NCBI GenBank assembly: GCA_016281925.1
Contig: JAEEJP010000073.1
Span: forward strand, 1-45,575
Source: Methanomassiliicoccaceae archaeon
GTDB taxonomy: Archaea; Thermoplasmatota; Thermoplasmata; Methanomassiliicoccales; Methanomethylophilaceae
Direction of reading: 5' to 3'
DNA length: 45,575 bases
Shown: positions 21,543-36,531 of the stretch, piece after piece
Position numbering within the stretch: position 1 is the stretch's first letter
Layout: every line of letters begins with the position of its first letter
Position numbers and translations under genes: made by a program
Notes under the pieces: model-generated
What the model was told of the DNA's origin: nothing
The model's database searches: none
What the model saw: only the letters and a program-made list of their open reading frames with translations

Positions 21543-22375
21543 GCGCGACCATCGCGGTGCAATAAAAGAACTTTCCGTCGGTTTCCGCTTCTGCAGGAGC
21601 CGAAAAGCCTGACCGTATTGGCTCCGCGCTCGTCCTTTTCGAACCGGGCGTCTATGCCGAAGACCGTCTTCATGTTGTCCTCGGTGAGTATATCCTCCGG
21701 CTTTCCCATGGCGAATATGTTATGGTCGTGGAGGAGGACCATCCTATCGCAGTAGCGGGCGACCATCGGCAGGTCGTGGGACACTATGACAACGGCGAGG
21801 CCGTTCCTGCGGGACAGATCTCTGATCAGATCCAGTATTTCGAACTGCATGTTGATGTCCAGATGGAGGGTGGGCTCGTCCATCAGGATGATATCGGGGG
21901 TCTGGGCTATTGCCCTGGCGATGATCGCCCTCTGCCTTTCCCCTCCGCTCATGGTGTTGATGTGGCGGTCGGCCATGCCGGTTATGCCCGTCTGCTCCAT
22001 GGCCTCGGCGATTATGCGCTCGTCCTACGAAGTGAGCCCTCTGAAGGATTCTTGGAACGGCATCCTGCCCATCTCCACGATCTCCCTTACGGTGAATGCG
22101 AAGCGGATCTCGTTGGACTGGGGGACCACCGCCACCTTCTTGGCGATGTCCTTCTTCTTCATGCCGGAGATGTCGTCCCCTTCGATGAGGACGCATCCGT
22201 GCTCCGGAGAGAGGTTTTTGTTGAGATTCTTGAGCAGAGTGGATTTCCCGCATCCGTTCGGGCCCAATATGCCCAGAATCTCCCCTTTGCCGACGCTGAG
22301 GCTGATGCTGTCGAGTACCTTCTTTTCCCTGTAGGAATAGCCGAGGCCGTCGACATCCATCATTCCGCTCACCAT
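21530..22375 (-). CDS. BtuD/FecE-type importer ATPase with in-frame TAG
   Basis: 281 residues if TAG at 22025-22027 (codon 117) is sense. Walker A GPNGCGKST near residue 33 lies before the TAG; signature SGGERQRA, Walker B IILMDEPTLHLDI and the H-loop VSHDLP lie after it, all in the same frame and at normal distances. The TAG sits in the surface helix GLTS-x-DERIIAEAM, where relatives have a charged residue, so pyrrolysine or suppression there would be harmless. Without read-through the protein would lose its signature motif and be dead. It follows the permease with a 7-base overlap and a GGAGG site. It powers uptake of a corrinoid, heme or iron chelate with the next two genes. Confidence 0.88.
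22025..22027 (-). other. In-frame TAG, candidate pyrrolysine codon
   Basis: TAG interrupts an otherwise perfect ABC ATPase between Walker A and the signature motif. The frame is unchanged on both sides, so this is a codon event and not a frameshift. Confidence 0.8.
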
Positions 22376-23397
22376 CCCACCTCCTTTTTCCTGCTGCACA
22401 GCAGATATATGAAGAACGGCGCACCGATCAGCGCGGTGACTATCCCTATCGGGAGGACGCCGAAGAACTGGGCCGCATAATGCGCTATGAAATCGCACAT
22501 CACGACGAAGGCTCCGCCGCCGATGGCCGACAGAGGAAGTATGAAGCGGTTGTCCGGGCCGATTATCAGCCTCATTATATGCGGGATCACCAGCCCGACG
22601 AATCCGATGGTCCCGGCGAAGCATACGCAGGCCGCCACCACCAGGGATGATATGATAAGCAGATGCAGCCTGGTCTTTTTCACGTCCACCCCCAGGTCCA
22701 TGGCGTGGGCATCCCCCAGCATCATGGCGTTGAGGTTCATGGACTGCGTCAGCATCAGGATTATTCCGGCGAAGATTATCGGGAGCGCCACGCAGATCTC
22801 GTCCCATCCCGCATCCCCGAGGCTTCCCATGGACCAGAAGACGATGCTGCCCATCTTCTCGCTGGGGGCTATGTAGGTCAGGAACGAGACTATCGCGGAG
22901 ATAAGCGAGGAGACGGCCACCCCGGCCAGGACCAGGGTCTCGGTCTTGATCAGGCTGCCTCCGGAGCGGGATATGGTGTATACCAGCACCATGGTCGCGA
23001 AGCACAGGACGAACGCGGCCAGAGGCTGGGCGATGGCCAGAGGGATCAGGGAGACCGGGAACATGATGGCAAGAGCGGCTCCGAGCGATGCTCCCGACGA
23101 CAGCCCGAGGATGTAAGGCGTGGCCAGAGGGTTCCTGAATACGGCCTGCATCACGCCTCCCGTCACGGCGAGCCCGGTGCCCACTCCGATCCCGAAGACT
23201 ATGCGCGGGACGTTGTGCCCGTTGACTATGATGTCGTTGGCCCAGGTGCCATGCCCCAGAAGCGCGTCTATGACTTCTTGGACGGAAAGCATCTCCTTTC
23301 CGGCCAGAGAAAGGTCCAGAACGACGAATAAGAGGAGGAGGACGGCCGATGCCGCCGCCGCAACCGCTGCCGACGCGGCTCTGCCATTGGATTTCAT
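22369..23397 (-). CDS. BtuC/FecD-type importer permease
   Basis: 342 residues with about ten membrane helices. Family marks include FRNPLATPYILGLSSGASLGA near residue 95 and the cytosolic coupling loop around LAGVAVSS. The C-terminal IGAPFFIYLL segment is typical of the FecCD family. The start at 23397 follows GGAGGA. It forms the membrane channel for the binding protein encoded upstream and the ATPase downstream. It ends at TGA inside the ATPase start. I read its frame for CGA and found none. Confidence 0.93.
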   Translation of the reverse strand: MKSNGRAASAAVAAAASAVLLLLFVVLDLSLAGKEMLSVQEVIDALLGHGTWANDIIVNGHNVPRIVFGIGVGTGLAVTGGVMQAVFRNPLATPYILGLSSGASLGAALAIMFPVSLIPLAIAQPLAAFVLCFATMVLVYTISRSGGSLIKTETLVLAGVAVSSLISAIVSFLTYIAPSEKMGSIVFWSMGSLGDAGWDEICVALPIIFAGIILMLTQSMNLNAMMLGDAHAMDLGVDVKKTRLHLLIISSLVVAACVCFAGTIGFVGLVIPHIMRLIIGPDNRFILPLSAIGGGAFVVMCDFIAHYAAQFFGVLPIGIVTALIGAPFFIYLLCSRKKEVGW

Positions 23398-23425
23398 AGC
23401 CGTCCTCCTGATTCGGGTGTCCTGC

Positions 23426-24523
23426 TTAAGCTTTGCCCTTTCTCTTGAAATAGAGCGCGGCAAGAGCCAGGACGAGGATTATCGACATCGCTACGGCTGC
23501 GATCACGAGATACTGGCCCATGTCCTGGCCTTTGCTGGGCTCAGGCGCGGGTTCGGGCTCAGGCGCGGATGCATAGAGCGCATTCGCGATCTCGGTGAGG
23601 CCGTCGGCTGAATCCGGGCACCAGTTGTTCCATTGGAGCCCCATCGGGACGACTTTAACGGTTCTGTCTCCGGCGAAAGCTTCCTTGTAGAAGTCGTCGA
23701 CCGTCTTTCCGTCGCTGAAATAGCTGTTGGACACGAATACGACGGCGTCTTTGTTGTTCTCCAGGAGCTTGGTGATGGCGTTGATGTCGCCGTATCTGGC
23801 GGAAGAATTGTCGGGGTCATATCCGATGTTGTTCGCCTTGCATACGTCCAGCATGGATTTCATGATCCCGGTGTTCCCGATCTGGAGGGATTTGCTGTAA
23901 TACCACACATAGAGGGCCTTGGGTCTGTCCTTCCCGTCGTAGCTCGCAGCTTTGTCTTCGACGGCTTTGATCTTGTTCTTCATGCTGTTTATGGAATCCG
24001 GGATGCTTCCGGATGCGATGAGCGAGACGTCCTCCACCATCCTCACGACGTCCGAGTAGTTCTCTATCGAGTTCCAGACAAGGATCCTGGTGAACCCTTC
24101 TTTGCTGAGCTTCTCGCGGAGATCGAGGTTGCTGGTGTAGGAAGTGAGGATGATGGTGTCGTCGAGGGAGAACTCCCCTTTTTCGACCATCTTCACGAGA
24201 GCGGTTATGATGAACTCGTGGTTGGAGGTTCCGTAGAAGCTTCCGAGATCCTCTGCTCTGAGGTCTTTGAGTTCTTCGAATTTGGTGTATTCATAGGTGG
24301 AATACTTGTCGACGGCTGCAATCTTGCTTACAGCGCCGGCTTCTGCGATCGTGAGGGCAGTGGCGGATCCGTTGAGGACGATCCTGTCTTCCGCTTCCTG
24401 GTATTCGAATGACATGCCTGTCCCGTCGGTGATCGTGAACGAAGCGTCGGAATCCTGAGCATAAAACGGCACCGCGCATATGGCAATAATCGCCACAAGT
24501 GTCGGTATGATGATTCTGAACAT
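23426..24523 (-). CDS. Membrane-anchored BtuF-like substrate-binding protein
   Basis: 365 residues: an N-terminal signal (FRIIIPTLVAIIAICAVPF), two class III binding-protein lobes (first from EDRIVLNGSATALTIAEAGA, second from ALYVWYYSKS) joined by a long helix near residue 185-200, then a Pro/Glu/Ala linker and a C-terminal membrane helix with KRKGKA inside. The C-terminal anchor replaces the lipid anchor of bacteria. Family members bind cobalamin, heme or ferric chelates. Methylotrophic methanogens depend on corrinoids, so cobalamin is a reasonable guess, but sequence alone cannot decide. It ends at TAA and heads the importer operon. Confidence 0.88.
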   Translation of the reverse strand: MFRIIIPTLVAIIAICAVPFYAQDSDASFTITDGTGMSFEYQEAEDRIVLNGSATALTIAEAGAVSKIAAVDKYSTYEYTKFEELKDLRAEDLGSFYGTSNHEFIITALVKMVEKGEFSLDDTIILTSYTSNLDLREKLSKEGFTRILVWNSIENYSDVVRMVEDVSLIASGSIPDSINSMKNKIKAVEDKAASYDGKDRPKALYVWYYSKSLQIGNTGIMKSMLDVCKANNIGYDPDNSSARYGDINAITKLLENNKDAVVFVSNSYFSDGKTVDDFYKEAFAGDRTVKVVPMGLQWNNWCPDSADGLTEIANALYASAPEPEPAPEPSKGQDMGQYLVIAAVAMSIILVLALAALYFKRKGKA

Positions 24524-28948: not shown

Positions 28949-29662
28949 TCAGAAGAAATAGAAGCCGCATCTGCCGCGGATGCATGCTCTGGCGGCCTCT
29001 TCCATCCTTTCCAACGGCCCGGAGTAGCGTCTGACGGCCAATTTCCCTTCCTCGGGGAGTTTTTCCCTGAGGATTTCGCATTCTATCAGAAGCTTCTCCG
29101 CGTCTTCGGGGCCGAATCTGCGTCCGGATTCCACCGATCCAGGGACCGAAGCCGTTATCGGGCAGCCGTATTTCTCCGCGATCTTAGGCAGCATGGAATT
29201 GTCCGGTCCGAAGGCTCCTATGCATCCGCGGCCTTTGTCCCACGAGAGCGGGCATTCCCGGCAGATATCGGACATGCCGTTGAAAGAAATCATGTCCCAT
29301 CCTGTAAGAATCTCCTCCGCCGCGGAAAGCACTCTCTCTTTGTCGGAGGCCGTCAGATTCTCTGTCGCGGCCCATCCGCTGCTGCGCTCCTCCGAGAGGG
29401 GTTCCAGGATTTTCCGGTCCGCTTTCTTCAGGTTCCTGATGTATACGAAATCCTCGTCCGGGTCCAGGGAGTTCCTTGTTACGAACTCATCCCAGTCGGG
29501 GATCGCTTCCCTGGCTTTGCCGACGGGAACGACAGGATCCTTCTCGAGGATGCTTTCCAATCCGCTGTCTTCCTTCACCCGGACTTTTACGATCTGTTTC
29601 CTGAGATCCCTGCATCCGGCGCATTCCGAATCCTCGTATTCCAGGCCTATATTGATCCCCAT
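28949..29662 (-). CDS. Cys-rich soluble protein of unknown function
   Basis: 237 residues, no membrane helix. N-terminal CAGCRDLR (Cys 14 and 17) and a mid-protein group CRECPLSWDKGRGC (near 137-150) followed by YGCPIT and a late CIRGRC give at least seven Cys, enough for an Fe-S cluster or zinc site. The body is acidic and helical. The gene is the third of a leftward operon after a four-helix membrane protein and a membrane-anchored protein, and its ATG forms a CGATG junction with the gene before. It stands back to back with the nitrogenase-like cluster and may serve as an electron carrier or assembly factor; that is guesswork. I do not recognise the family. No in-frame CGA was found. Confidence 0.65.
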   Translation of the reverse strand: MGINIGLEYEDSECAGCRDLRKQIVKVRVKEDSGLESILEKDPVVPVGKAREAIPDWDEFVTRNSLDPDEDFVYIRNLKKADRKILEPLSEERSSGWAATENLTASDKERVLSAAEEILTGWDMISFNGMSDICRECPLSWDKGRGCIGAFGPDNSMLPKIAEKYGCPITASVPGSVESGRRFGPEDAEKLLIECEILREKLPEEGKLAVRRYSGPLERMEEAARACIRGRCGFYFF

Positions 29663-31338: not shown

Positions 31339-32190
31339 ATGTTCCAGGTCGCGATTTACGGCAAAGGCGGGATCGGAAAGTCCACGATGGCCGCCAACAT
31401 CTCTTATTCCCTCGCTTCGCGCGGCCGCAAAGTCATGCAGATCGGATGCGATCCGAAGCACGACTCTACGCGCCAGCTTCTCGGAGGCAGGGCGCAGACG
31501 ACCGTCCTCGATTACGCGCGCTCCGTCCCCGTCCTCAAGAGGAAGCTGGAGGACGTGACAGAGACCGGGGCCGGAGGGGTCATCTGCGCCGAGGCCGGGG
31601 GCCCGGAGCCGGGCATAGGATGTGCCGGCCGCGGGATTCTGACCACGTTCGACACACTGAAGAAGCTGGGCGCCGACTCCCTCGACGTGGACATAAAAAT
31701 ATATGACGTCCTCGGGGACGTGGTATGCGGCGGGTTCGCCGTCCCTCTGAGGGGCGAATACGCCGATGCCGTGGTTCTGGTCACATCCGGGGAGTTCATG
31801 TCGATGTATGCGGCGAACAACATCATGAAAGGCCTTTCCAATTTCGACACTGGAAAACCCCGCCTTCTGGGCATGATACTGAACTGCCGCGGTGTCGAGA
31901 ACGAGATCGAATCCGTGGGGAAGTTTGCGGATGCGGCCGGCGTGCCGATCATCGCGGTCATCCCGCGCGATTATTCGTTCAGAGAGGCCGAGGCGAAGGG
32001 GGCCACCGTACGCGAGCTGTTCGGGGATTCGGACATATCGGCGAGGATAGATTCCATCGCCGATGCCATATCCTCGGCCGCAGACGGCAGGGCAGAGCTC
32101 CGCTACCCGCATCCCTTGGATGACCTCCAGCTGTCGGATTTAGCCGCGGGAAGGGATATACGTCCGGGATCGGGGGTTCCCCAGCAACGA
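31339..32190 (+). CDS. NifH/BchL-like reductase iron protein, ends at CGA
   Basis: 283 residues to CGA at 32188-32190. It is an ATP-dependent electron donor homodimer. The P-loop is GKGGIGKST (residues 8-16), followed by the switch-region GCDPKHDST. The two Cys that bridge the 4Fe-4S cluster are in GIGCAGRG near 97 and GDVVCGGF near 132. The C-terminal region ends SGVPQQ then CGA, close to NifH length. The same frame continues without an ordinary stop into the D-like gene, so a naive reading gives a 711-residue H-D fusion. CGA occurs only here in that entire frame. It differs from CfbC, the NifH-like protein of F430 synthesis, mainly by context. It is the first gene of H-D-K. Confidence 0.88.
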
Positions 32191-32241
32191 TCCGCCTGCT
32201 CCGGATGCGGGCGCAGGACGTCCATCAAAGGGACGAGGATA

Positions 32242-33474
32242 ATGAGTTCCTGCGCGGCGTTCGGGGCGGTCGCGGCTCTGACGAAGCTTACCGATTACGA
32301 GGTGCTGATACACGGCCCGCGCAGCTGCATGTATCTCATGGACATGTCCCGCGGGAGCATATCGATGAAGCTCCATTCCAAAGGCGCGTACGAGACCTTG
32401 CCGGTGCACAACCTCCGCTGCACCATGATGGACGATTCCGTCTCCATCTTCGGCGGGGTCCGCCTCCTCGAAGAGTCATTGGAGGAAACGATATCGGACG
32501 GATGCATGAAGATAGCGGTGGTCACGGCCTGCATGCCGGGGATAATAGGGGATGACTGCGCCGGGGTCATAGAGAAAGTGTCCTCGAGGCATCCGGGCGC
32601 GGTCATAGCATGCATACAGACCGACGGGGACGTGGCCGGATCTTACGACGAAGGCATGGCAATGGCGTCGGAATTCATCTGCGGGCTGATGGATCCTTCG
32701 GTGAGGCCTGAAAAAGGGCTGGTGAACCTCGTTTCGTACTCGTTCTTCAACATCGAATCCAGCAGATACCGCGGGGAGCTGGGCCGCATCCTCTCGCTGT
32801 TCGGACTGAGCGTGAACTGCAGGTTCATGGACGAGACGACTTCCGGCCGCGTCAGGGATTTCTGCAGGGCATCCATGGATCTTCCGGTCTCCGGCGACAG
32901 GATGACGGCCGAGATGATAGCGGTCATAACTGAGCGCACCGGCAGGAAGCCGTTCCCCCTGCCTCTGCCCGTAGGCATGAGGCAATACGCCGAATGGCTG
33001 CGCCTGATGGGTGAAACGCTGGGCATGGAAGAGGCGGCCGAATCGGAGCTCAGACGCGCCGAGGAAGAGTACGGGGAGTTCCTGGCGAAGCATAAGCGCC
33101 GCTTCGAAGGAAAGAAAGTCATAATGCTGAACAGGAGGGGCGACTGGCTGGCCGAGCTCCTGGACGACCTGGGAGCGGATATAGTGCGCATGGGGATGAT
33201 GTCAGGCCTGCCGCGCACTTATTCCACAGCCTCCAGCCGCATGTCCGGCAGGGTGACCGAGGATTACTCCTGGGAGATGCTGGCCGCGGATCTGAAAGAA
33301 TTCGACCCCGACCTTCTGATAGCCGATCTCCCGTATCCTGTCGCGGGCAAGTGCAGAGTGGCCAGGACTCGGAAGGTCGGCATAGGGACAGTCGGCCCGA
33401 TGGATTATGCTGTCTATCTCGAGAACGTGATGAGGCTTCCCGCCAAGGAAGGATGGAAGGAGGCGGCCAGATGA
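32242..33474 (+). CDS. Nitrogenase-like component, NifD/BchN-type subunit
   Basis: 410 residues from ATG 32242, which follows GAGGA. Three Cys stand where NifD and BchN hold their cluster: Cys4 in SSCAAFGA, Cys29 in HGPRSC and Cys97 in VVTACMPGIIGDD. Cys60 and Cys88 are extra. The C-terminal Cys and His that hold FeMo cofactor in NifD are not seen, so this is not a nitrogen-fixing enzyme. The 51 bases between the H-like CGA and this ATG are in frame and would encode CSGCGRRTSIKG, with coding-like third positions. An N-terminal extension through CGA read-through is therefore possible. The gene overlaps the K-like start by four bases (ATGA). The substrate is unknown; a tetrapyrrole or another conjugated ring is typical of related reductases. 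Confidence 0.85.
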   Translation: MSSCAAFGAVAALTKLTDYEVLIHGPRSCMYLMDMSRGSISMKLHSKGAYETLPVHNLRCTMMDDSVSIFGGVRLLEESLEETISDGCMKIAVVTACMPGIIGDDCAGVIEKVSSRHPGAVIACIQTDGDVAGSYDEGMAMASEFICGLMDPSVRPEKGLVNLVSYSFFNIESSRYRGELGRILSLFGLSVNCRFMDETTSGRVRDFCRASMDLPVSGDRMTAEMIAVITERTGRKPFPLPLPVGMRQYAEWLRLMGETLGMEEAAESELRRAEEEYGEFLAKHKRRFEGKKVIMLNRRGDWLAELLDDLGADIVRMGMMSGLPRTYSTASSRMSGRVTEDYSWEMLAADLKEFDPDLLIADLPYPVAGKCRVARTRKVGIGTVGPMDYAVYLENVMRLPAKEGWKEAAR

Positions 33475-34736
33475 GGACGCTTCCTGACGGGTTCAACGGC
33501 GCCGTCATGGCCGTGGAAAGCATAGACGATGCCGTCGCGTTCCTCCACGGCCCGGGAGGGTGCAGGGTGAGGCATATGGTACATTCCAGCGCCGTCTACC
33601 CCAGAATGACGCCGGGTTCGGACGAGGACTGGTTCGGCCCCTACTACTACGGTTATCCCCGGGTACCGGCCTCGTATCTCGATGAATACGATTTCATCAA
33701 CGGAGCTTTCTACAAGCTGGACGAGGCTCTGCCCATAATCGCGGACAAGAAGCCGTCGCTCATAGTCGTGATAAATTCTCCCGGCGCAGCTCTGATCGGG
33801 GACAACATAGAGAAAGCGATCAGGGACAACGGCCTGGAGGATCTGGCGATATACATGGACGAGTCCCTGGTCTCTATGCCGGTCACCGAGTGCTACGGCC
33901 ATATGATGAGGGCCATAATGGAGCATCTGGCTCCCAAAAGGGACAAGGTCCGTCCGGGGACTCTGAACATATTGGGGCTGTCCCTGCTGGACAAAGACTG
34001 GGCGGCCGCCAGAGACGAGCTGTGCGGATATGCCCGGGACATAGGCCTCGAGGTCATATCCACGCCGGGCGCCGGCGCTTCCGTCTCCGACCTGAAGGCT
34101 TCCGCGGAGGCGGAATTCAATATGGTGGTATGCCCCGAGATGTGCGCCGGCCTCACGGATTATTATGAATCCTTGGGGATTCCCACCGTCCGCTCGCCGG
34201 CCGGGGCGCCTGTCGGATTCTCCGCTCTGAGGAAGTGGATAGAGACTATGGCCTCCGCATCCGGGAAGGATCCTTCCGCCGCGCTGGGAAGAGTCGGCAA
34301 AGCCGAGAGGGCGGTATTCGACAAGCTGTCCGGTATGAGATACATGCCGCTGAGGATCAGGGCGCTTTCGTTCTCCGTCGCGGGCACGGCGTCCGTCGTC
34401 AGGCCCATGGCCGAATGGCTCTACGGGTATCTCGGCATGATTCCCATAGCGGCTGCGGTCGATCCCGGCGCGGATGAGAAGGAGACGGCGGCTCTGAAGG
34501 AGTTCCTGGGCTCCCACGACATGTCCGAGGCTTTCGGTGAGGAGCCGGCGGAAGGCAGCGACGTCGTCCTATGCGAAGGCGTCACCGCGAACATAATGGC
34601 CGCCGGAGGATGCGTCGGCATTCCGATAGGGTATTCCGGCAGCGGCCTGGACGACATGATCCCCCGCCCGATCTACGGCATCCAAGGGGCCAGGTACATA
34701 CTCGACGAGCTGGTCCACGGCGTCAGAGGCTCGTGA
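33471..34736 (+). CDS. Nitrogenase-like component, NifK/BchB-type subunit
   Basis: 421 residues. The N-terminus reads GFNGAVMAVESIDDAVAFLHGPGGC; Cys31 takes the place of Asp36 of BchB, the one non-Cys ligand of the DPOR cluster, while the other two NifK Cys are gone (Ala for the first, Ser in INSPGAALIGDN for the third). D plus K therefore offer three plus one ligands, as in dark protochlorophyllide reductase. Later segments VVCPEMCAGLTDYYESLGIP and LRALSFSVAGTASVV-like strands follow the three-Rossmann-domain plan. It is co-translated with the D-like gene. Methanogen CfbD is a single-gene homodimer, so a separate D and K pair marks a different enzyme. Confidence 0.84.
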   Translation: MRTLPDGFNGAVMAVESIDDAVAFLHGPGGCRVRHMVHSSAVYPRMTPGSDEDWFGPYYYGYPRVPASYLDEYDFINGAFYKLDEALPIIADKKPSLIVVINSPGAALIGDNIEKAIRDNGLEDLAIYMDESLVSMPVTECYGHMMRAIMEHLAPKRDKVRPGTLNILGLSLLDKDWAAARDELCGYARDIGLEVISTPGAGASVSDLKASAEAEFNMVVCPEMCAGLTDYYESLGIPTVRSPAGAPVGFSALRKWIETMASASGKDPSAALGRVGKAERAVFDKLSGMRYMPLRIRALSFSVAGTASVVRPMAEWLYGYLGMIPIAAAVDPGADEKETAALKEFLGSHDMSEAFGEEPAEGSDVVLCEGVTANIMAAGGCVGIPIGYSGSGLDDMIPRPIYGIQGARYILDELVHGVRGS

Positions 34737-34779: not shown

Positions 34780-35535
34780 TCAGATTTTCTTGGTTTTGAG
34801 AAGATACACGTCTATGGCGAAGAAGGCCGCGGCGAAGGCTATCAGAACCGCGAGGGATATCCACGGGAAATCGATGTAATCCGGGAGCGCCGCGCCTCTG
34901 ATGATTTCGCTGGCATGGGTCAGCGGCAGGCAGTAAAGTATGGCCTGGAACACGGGGTTCAGAGAGCTGACCGAGAAGAAAGTGCCGCACAGGAAGGTCA
35001 TGGGAAGGATGATCAGGCTGTTCAGGGTTGCCATGGTCTGGTGGGATTTCGCCAGCAGGGCCACCGCCACCCCCAGCAGCGAGAACGTCATGCACGAGAC
35101 GATTATGCATATTATGATCAGCGGCGACAGCACAAGCTCCGGAGCCAGGAACAGGCCCAGCGCGTACAGAAGGAAGCAGCTCAGAAGGCCTCTCATAAGG
35201 CCGAGGACACATTTCCCGAGGACGATGGACGACAGGCTGAGCGGGCACATCATCATCTCGTCGAAGCTCTTGTAATACAGCCTCTGGACGTTCATCCTCG
35301 TGGCGCTGGCCGAGAACGAGGACGACAGGGAGGACAGCGCGGCGATACCGGGTATGACGAACGCCACATACGAGACTCCTATGTCGGTTTCTCCGGTCCT
35401 GAGCCCGTACCCGAAAGCGATCAGGTACAGAAGCGGGCTCATGATGCTCATGACCAGGATGTTCAGGAAATTGTGCTTGAAGAACATCAGGTCTCCCCAA
35501 GCGACGTGGAAGGTGTCGACCAGAAGGTTGCTCAT
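34780..35535 (-). CDS. ABC-2 permease (DrrB type), exporter 1
   Basis: 251 residues, six membrane helices. The start is GDLMFFKHNFLNILVMSIMSPLLYLIAFGYGL, with FVIPGIAALSSLSSSF and the family segment MTFLCGTFFSVSSLNP plus LPLTHASEIIRG near 205, the ABC-2 signature region of drug, lipid or polysaccharide exporters. It ends KTKKI at a normal TGA. Its close relative on the other side of the regulator ends at the same place but with CGA, which calibrates that call. Co-translated with the ATPase (ATGA overlap). Confidence 0.92.
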   Translation of the reverse strand: MSNLLVDTFHVAWGDLMFFKHNFLNILVMSIMSPLLYLIAFGYGLRTGETDIGVSYVAFVIPGIAALSSLSSSFSASATRMNVQRLYYKSFDEMMMCPLSLSSIVLGKCVLGLMRGLLSCFLLYALGLFLAPELVLSPLIIICIIVSCMTFSLLGVAVALLAKSHQTMATLNSLIILPMTFLCGTFFSVSSLNPVFQAILYCLPLTHASEIIRGAALPDYIDFPWISLAVLIAFAAAFFAIDVYLLKTKKI

Positions 35536-36389
35536 GTCTGCGCCCCCACGCTCTTCCCGGTGAGCTCTACGAACACATCCTCCAGGTTCGTCTTCCTGAT
35601 GGAGACGTTCCCTTCTTTGGTGGATGCGAAAGCGTTGGCCTCATCCCTGTCTTTGAAGTATCTGTATTGAGTCTTTCCTTCCTCCGCGAATTCCACTGCG
35701 ATGGAGCCCACTTTGTCGCAGAGGACGCGGGGCTCGTCCAGGGCTATTATCTTCCCTTTGTCGATGATCCCCACCCTGTCGCACAGGGATTCGGCCTCCT
35801 CGATGTAATGGGTGGTAAGGATGATGGTGGTCCCTTCGGCGTGCAGCTTCCTGATGATGTCCCACAGAAGGCGGCGCGCGTTGATGTCCAGGCCGGACGT
35901 CGGCTCGTCCAGGAACAGGACTTCGGGGTTGTGGAGCATGGCGCAGACGATGGCCGCCCTTTTCTTCCATCCTCCGGAGAGCGAATCCACGGGTTTGTCC
36001 AGGTATTCGCCGAGGCTGAAGAAATCGGAAAGCTCGGCGATCTTCTCCTCGCGCTCTTTCTTTCTTATGTCATGGTACATCGCGTGTGAGATCATATTCT
36101 CGCGGATGGTCAGATCCTTGTCCAGCGAGACCTGCTGCTGTATGACTCCCATGCAGCTCTTGGCGGCCGAAGGCTCCTTCTTCACGTCGTGCCCTCCCAC
36201 CAGGATCGTGCCTTCATCGAATCCGGTCAGGGTCGCTACGCACCTCAGCGTCGTCGTCTTCCCGGCTCCGTTGGGGCCGAGGAATCCGAAAAGCTCTCCT
36301 TTGCGGATGCTGAGATCGAGGCCGTTCACCGCGGTTTTGTCTCCGAACCGTTTGACCAGGCCTTTAATGACGATTATATCGTCCATCAT
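35532..36389 (-). CDS. ABC exporter ATPase (DrrA type), exporter 1
   Basis: 285 residues from the first of two consecutive ATGs. Walker A GPNGAGKTT near residue 38, Q-loop VIQQQVSLDKDLT, signature LSGGWKKRAAI, Walker B VLFLDEPTSGLD and H-loop TTHYIEEAE. The C-terminal tail NLEDVFVELTGKSV is typical of daunorubicin-type (DrrA) ATPases. It pairs with the permease downstream. The 232-base region upstream is shared with the divergent AbrB-like gene and contains TATA-like bases near 36480-36494 and the ATTACA array. The substrate is unknown. Confidence 0.93.
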   Translation of the reverse strand: MMDDIIVIKGLVKRFGDKTAVNGLDLSIRKGELFGFLGPNGAGKTTTLRCVATLTGFDEGTILVGGHDVKKEPSAAKSCMGVIQQQVSLDKDLTIRENMISHAMYHDIRKKEREEKIAELSDFFSLGEYLDKPVDSLSGGWKKRAAIVCAMLHNPEVLFLDEPTSGLDINARRLLWDIIRKLHAEGTTIILTTHYIEEAESLCDRVGIIDKGKIIALDEPRVLCDKVGSIAVEFAEEGKTQYRYFKDRDEANAFASTKEGNVSIRKTNLEDVFVELTGKSVGAQT

Positions 36390-36531
36390 ATCACTCGGAA
36401 CAGTCTTTTCTGACGCATCGGATGTCCAGTGGCATTGGAAACCAGTCTCTCGCGTCACTTTTGTGCAGAACGCTTTGTCATATGTATATATATGCGTACT
36501 GCAGAATCGGCGATTTAATAATATAACACTA

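Follow-up and report, generated by a model that had tools for sequence, protein, structure and literature searches.

The characterised nitrogenase-like enzymes that lack ligands for the iron-molybdenum cofactor (FeMo-cofactor), namely dark-operative protochlorophyllide oxidoreductase (DPOR; BchLNB or ChlLNB), chlorophyllide oxidoreductase (COR; BchXYZ) and CfbCD, act on tetrapyrroles (PMC7242693), isethionate reductase (Isr) being the exception. Group IV of these enzymes, which holds Isr alongside Cfb, methylthio-alkane reductase (Mar) and Nfa (PMC11423573), has variable sets of cysteines (Dos Santos 2012, PMC3464626); the same survey noted, as 'data not shown' and without a ligand set, genomic context or function, a fused nifH-nifE open reading frame followed by a nifN-like gene in Archaea, Firmicutes and Deltaproteobacteria. 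A fused nifH/nifE is also mentioned by Borrel 2014, and we found no function for fused H-D enzymes of Group IV in the literature searched.

Here we analysed a gene pair of the same architecture, HD-K, in a contig of 45,575 nucleotides (JAEEJP010000073.1; the window) from a Methanomassiliicoccaceae archaeon (GCA_016281925.1), a gut methanogen with several copies per genome. The pair occupies positions 31339-34736, from the start of H to the stop of K, the limits already given by a reading made from the letters and open reading frames alone (the sequence-only reading). We propose, with a probability of roughly 0.55, that HD-K is a two-polypeptide, ATP-driven nitrogenase-like reductase of a tetrapyrrole, probably an imported metal-tetrapyrrole or corrinoid, acting in a pathway shared with a chelatase: ligands of the COR/DPOR type, set in a context of tetrapyrrole import and chelatase genes, make such a ring its most likely substrate. 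The central observation of the sequence-only reading was confirmed, while its DPOR label, its three separate subunits and its claim of newness were not; the fused gene order was noted in 2012, relatives are widespread and the genome itself holds three pairs. The new part is the genomic context, that is, the importers, the chelatases and the co-occurrence with CobN.

Gene layout and distribution of HD-K

H and D form a single frame with no stop between them, one chain of 711 residues (31339..33474, forward strand) in which a NifH-like reductase (PF00142, 286 bits, residues 3-269) is joined to a NifD-like domain (PF00148, 169 bits, residues 305-663), rather than the two subunits previously counted. 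The H domain (residues 1-270; 31339..32148) carries the P-loop GKGGIGKST and the [4Fe-4S] cysteines Cys95 (31621-31623) and Cys130 (31726-31728), and the D domain (residues 305-711; 32251..33471) the predicted cluster ligands Cys305 (32251), Cys330 (32326) and Cys398 (32530). The linker between them (residues 271-304; 32149..32250) is predicted by AlphaFold2 to be disordered at residues 279-303 (pLDDT < 50). K, a subunit of 421 residues on the same strand (33471..34736; PF00148, 120.6 bits; model mean pLDDT 92.4), has a single predicted ligand, Cys31 (33561-33563), and its start overlaps the stop of HD as ATGA at 33471-33474. Both proteins pass the Pfam cutoffs for PF00142/PF00148, placing them in the nitrogenase component 1 superfamily with its reductase.

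Separately, we observed that CxxC or CxC motifs occur in 21 of 40 H-D linkers, including the CSGC of the window (residues 287-290; 32197-32208) and those of loci L052, L057, L064, L080 and L085, where an extra metal or redox site is possible.

The H-D fusion is natural and not an artefact: H is fused to D at 63 of the 67 loci from other genomes with a readable H, and among 61 genomes of the window's own family the D matches of HD-K type lie mostly in frames of ~700-800 residues. A triple H-D-K fusion, suggested by open frames of 1129-1279 residues, was rejected, a TGA standing between HD and K of the same frame in 3/3 cases checked. At one locus (L049:9480-9560) HD closes with TGA and the K frame runs on without a nearby ATG, GTG or TTG, with a lost start codon, a sequence error or read-through as options.

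HD-K is widespread in methanogens and anaerobic bacteria and is not unique to this genome, a spread like that of the fused form in the 2012 survey. A scan of named genomes, run with a 15-row subset of the K alignment since the full 45 rows were too diverse, gave 212 matching stretches, with hosts including Methanosarcina, Methanolobus psychrotolerans, Methanospirillum stamsii, Methanoregula, Methanoculleus, Desulfocicer vacuolatum, Desulfobulbus elongatus, Syntrophomonas and a Chloroflexi metagenome-assembled genome. In a search of 155 genomes from the phylum, matches to the K profile were nearly confined to the window's family, and two other families of the order had D matches in some of their genomes. 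A PF00148 search of the window's genome found its three HD-K pairs on contigs C97 (the window), C29 and C31, as well as a CfbD on contig C20 and an orphan K located at a contig end (C66).

Four conserved cysteines match the ligand columns of COR

Cys305, Cys330 and Cys398 are invariant in 39 HD proteins whose D domains fall to 21% identity, as are the P-loop, Cys95 and Cys130 of H, and all 45 K proteins compared, with identity down to 24%, have Cys31. When 27 HD-K D domains were aligned with named references, these were the only three D columns with cysteine conserved in at least 80% of sequences, and Cys31 was the only such column in K. Judged by this invariance, the conserved cysteines of D and K are not there by chance. 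They are those picked out by the sequence-only reading, which had numbered the D residues 4, 29 and 97 from an internal methionine (residue 302) and had proposed a 3+1 ligand set without a P-cluster.

In K, Cys31 sits in the motif HGPGGC, and the other two P-cluster ligand positions are without cysteine, as had been claimed. The loss of FeMo-cofactor ligands was likewise borne out for cysteine: the NifD Cys275 position, a cysteine in NifD, NifE, AnfD and MarD, is a cysteine in 0/27 HD-K D sequences. No conserved histidine column was seen in the region of NifD His442, where the C-terminal part aligns too poorly for column scoring. Three invariant cysteines in D and one in K, with no further conserved cysteine, predict that D and K share a single all-cysteine [4Fe-4S] cluster at their interface and that a P-cluster is absent.

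The exact alignment of Cys31 with Asp36 of BchB was confirmed both in the alignment and in chains of the Protein Data Bank (PDB), where residue 36 is Asp in 3aek_B, Cys in 3aet_B and Ala in 3aeu_B; the K profile prefers the Cys36 variant 3aet (85.0 bits) over the wild type (77.5 bits). DPOR has one shared [4Fe-4S] cluster, as predicted for HD-K, and BchB has the fold closest to the K model (TM-score 0.81), but DPOR ligates with Asp where 45/45 K proteins have Cys, and its H is separate. COR, by contrast, has three cysteines in its D-type subunit BchY and one in its K-type subunit BchZ, in the same columns as HD-K and without the FeMo-cofactor cysteine (Roseinatronobacter sequences in the same alignment; the ligation of COR is taken from this alignment and the review PMC7242693). 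The all-cysteine 3+1 set of HD-K is therefore the COR set, not the DPOR set that it had been labelled. COR is itself a tetrapyrrole reductase; it differs in having a separate H, in being specific to phototrophs and in not grouping with HD-K.

HD-K lies outside the characterised clades

HD-K scored far under the cutoffs of the NCBIfam equivalogs for Bch, Nif, Cfb and NifEN (BchB, 49.5 bits against a cutoff of 490; BchL, 183 against 345), and for the H domain the top score came from the CfbC model (301 bits, cutoff 402). A single-sequence phmmer search of the PDB with K gave zero matches, whereas profile searches gave MarK and ChlB/BchB as the best matches for K and NifE for D. We built joint trees with FastTree on all rows (94 sequences) and with IQ-TREE LG+G4 on 65 rows. 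K subunits of HD-K formed a separate clade (UFBoot 100; SH-like 0.997); the D subunits were modestly supported as a group (SH-like 0.949; UFBoot 46, or 96 with L219a, a Methanoregula relative, counted in) that lies outside Nif, Anf, Mar, Bch and CfbD, with weak deep nodes, and the H domains grouped too under midpoint rooting. HD-K thus clustered with no characterised clade, and neither tree placed its D or K with BchYZ.

Membership in each described group was considered and rejected. K has one of the three P-cluster cysteines and D lacks Cys275, which, with the tree placement, speaks against Mo, V and Fe nitrogenases; MarHDK is set apart by its cofactor cysteine, absent in HD-K, by its P-cluster, for which HD-K lacks the full ligand set, and by the failure of HD-K to cluster with Rhodospirillum rubrum MarDK; IsrHDK has the cysteines the other way round, with a single one in D and three in K (PMC11423573); and DPOR was rejected on the replacement of Asp36 and the missed BchL and BchB cutoffs. 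CfbCD resembles HD-K as a nitrogenase-like pair that reduces a tetrapyrrole and through the best score of H, but has CfbD as its one D-type subunit. With a K subunit, along with D and a fused H, HD-K is therefore not CfbD-like, just as the sequence-only reading had held. Contig C20 carries a row of cfbC, a CbiX-like gene (cfbA), a MurF-like gene (cfbE), cfbD and a cfbB-like gene; its cfbD, the only gene to pass the TIGR03282 cutoff (376 bits, cutoff 268), and the row as a whole place cfbCD elsewhere in the genome, therefore separate from HD-K.

Other relatives appeared in the course of these searches. An unfused D/K pair with three cysteines per subunit (L219; Methanoregula, G246:C37) has a D that branches beside the HD-K D clade. 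Within the window's family, two loci (L222 in G037 and L223 in G017) carry D and K genes that group with R. rubrum MarDK at high support and are methylthio-alkane reductase-like, and a third pair (L224, G044) is similar to them; four strong, NifDKEN-like PF00148 matches stand in a row at L225 (G010) and on contig C78 of G037.

Importers and chelatases accompany HD-K

In eight mapped genomes, FecCD permease genes lie within 10 kb of 11 of 14 HD-K copies, against 1.8 expected at random, and CobN lies within 20 kb of 5/14, against 1.1 expected (p = 0.003). A tetrapyrrole chelatase is present within 8 kb at 13 of the 23 loci from outside Methanomassiliicoccales, several of which are incomplete; it is CobN (PF02514, with 1217 bits in Methanospirillum), CbiK or ChlI/D, and several loci also have CbiZ. 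CobN, ChlI/D, CbiZ, CbiK, Peripla_BP_2 and FecCD adjoin HD-K in varying combinations in Methanospirillum, Methanoregula, Methanoculleus, Methanolobus, Chloroflexi and Syntrophaceae, and in the Gram-negative Desulfocicer two TonB receptors stand upstream of HD-K. The window's genome has four CobN matches, ChlID and 27 FecCD in total; importer permeases follow HD-K on C29, a CbiK chelatase (PF06180, 157 bits) directly precedes it on C31, and, of the contigs with CobN, C35 has it behind a set of importer genes and C84 next to a ChlID-like gene. The C84 copies are two tandem CobN genes adjoining the ChlID-like gene (L236:4404-11787).

Of the 47 family genomes with HD-K, 43 have CobN, and none of the 14 without HD-K does (61 genomes in all; Fisher p = 1.4e-10; p = 5e-5 among genomes at least 90% complete), statistics that ignore kinship among the genomes; HD-K was scored from the PF00148 table, genomes with only a CfbD-like match or none counting as lacking it. 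In the same genomes, CobN copy number rises with the count of PF00148 matches (Spearman 0.64). Importer linkage favours imported substrates. The HD-K-linked CobN scores 716 bits against CobN and 399 bits against the dechelatase HmuS, and this resemblance, taken with the presence of ChlID, slightly favours metal insertion over removal. HmuS/BtuS systems of anaerobic gut microbes similarly tie a CobN-type protein to metal-tetrapyrrole uptake; the 2025 HmuS study, which states that how Archaea use CobN, HmuS and ChlH homologs is unclear, makes no mention of nitrogenase (PMC12583661). No paper linking the fused enzyme to CobN or importers was found in a literature search with subscription journals outside its coverage.

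Proposed pathway and alternatives

If HD-K reduces an imported ring, a FecBCD/BtuFCD-type importer would bring in the metal-tetrapyrrole or corrinoid, and CobN/ChlID or CbiK would insert or remove metal in the same pathway. The enzyme would assemble as (HD-K)2, its H domains dimerising on a [4Fe-4S] cluster and the dimer docking on DK in an ATP-dependent manner by way of the flexible ~30-residue linker; the H dimer would then send single electrons to the all-cysteine [4Fe-4S] cluster of each D-K interface, from which they would reach a ring bound close by, in the manner of DPOR and COR. Free nitrogenase or DPOR takes two H dimers per (DK)2; the fusion sets H:D at 1:1 and would therefore give one. 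Since nitrogenase catalysis is understood to proceed by cycles of Fe-protein docking and release, the fusion offers a mechanistic test case, an Fe protein unable to leave HD-K.

More tentatively, HD-K may belong to a widespread and hitherto uncharacterised anaerobic pathway for imported metal-tetrapyrroles, in which a FecBCD-type importer, the tethered enzyme and CobN/ChlID act together to convert or strip rings of the heme, corrinoid or chlorin type, different paralogs being adapted to different rings. Were this so, the pathway would be the role of archaeal CobN homologs and a nitrogenase-type enzyme would operate with its reductase covalently attached; linkage and co-distribution join the fused Group IV enzymes and the archaeal CobN question in one testable pathway.

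Besides the disregard of kinship, several points weigh against reduction of an imported ring. The importer of the window lies 7 kb from HD-K on the opposite strand and CobN is on other contigs; four genomes with HD-K lack CobN; several bacterial loci have no nearby tetrapyrrole gene, and in Syntrophomonas a ZnuA/ABC-3 metal importer takes its place. FecBCD importers, moreover, also transport siderophores.

The ring might instead be made in the cell, HD-K producing a reduced tetrapyrrole (a cofactor or metal scavenger) from a cellular precursor, which a chelatase would metallate, the ABC-2 transporter export and FecBCD re-import. The ATPase partner ChlID that accompanies CobN fits insertion, as does the closer resemblance of the linked CobN to CobN than to HmuS, and a convergent ABC-2 transporter is conserved beside K; yet the HD-K neighbourhoods examined contain no ring-building genes and the many importer paralogs suit uptake better, and we regard such a biosynthetic route as doubtful. 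Alternatively, HD-K could act on no tetrapyrrole at all and reductively free metal from a siderophore-like chelate imported by FecBCD or Znu. FecBCD, the TonB receptors and the ZnuA/ABC-3 of Syntrophomonas are importers of metals or metal chelates, and in Methanosarcina barkeri BtuS/CobN-like proteins respond to the iron source (PMC10846266). This is nonetheless quite unlikely: no ATP-driven nitrogenase-like reduction of siderophores is known, and the linkage to CobN, CbiK and CbiZ and the co-distribution with CobN would be left unexplained.

A second CfbCD-like system contributing to coenzyme F430 synthesis, suggested by the affinity of H to CfbC and by methanogen hosts, is largely refuted and very improbable, given the complete cfb cluster elsewhere, the non-methanogen hosts (Desulfocicer, Desulfobulbus, Chloroflexi), the 14 of 61 family genomes without HD-K, the presence of K and the distance of the D subunits from CfbD. 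Equally remote is a C-S bond reductase like Mar or Isr, both of Group IV (PMC11423573): among solved structures MarK scores best with the K profile, but Mar needs a P-cluster and an [Fe8S9C] cluster (PMC12552129) whose Cys275-type ligand HD-K lacks, Isr has the opposite cysteine set, no radical SAM gene was seen adjoining HD-K in the window, and sister genomes have separate Mar-like genes (L222, L223).

Neighbouring genes in the window

Convergent with K is an ABC-2 type transporter permease (34780..35535, reverse strand; PF01061, 74.3 bits), followed by the ABC ATPase of the pair (35532..36458, reverse strand), an open reading frame that shows conserved pairing with the permease; the ABC-2 pair is conserved downstream of K, in the same place and orientation, in Methanomicrobiales and the window's genus. 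The importer is represented by a FecCD/BtuC-type permease (22369..23463, reverse strand; PF01032, 292 bits) and a putative substrate-binding protein (23426..24523, reverse strand). The latter, without a Pfam match, belongs to cluster SBP12, found beside FecCD in the window, L052, L064 and L066, and is orthologous to the protein that heads the importer in sister genomes. The ABC ATPase expected after FecCD (21744-22424, reverse strand) appears to be split into two frames near 22025, either by an assembly frameshift or as a broken gene.

Pfam searches of some neighbours gave nothing relevant (an HMG-CoA reductase in L053). A conserved protein of 237 residues without a Pfam match (28949-29662, reverse strand) adjoins HD-K together with FMN reductase and SufBC in sister genomes. 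Finally, the putative substrate-binding proteins at L014:15231-18959 and in the cluster dockSBP carry N-terminal dockerin-like repeats, unusual for part of an importer, and the L014 protein also has a Big_2 domain.

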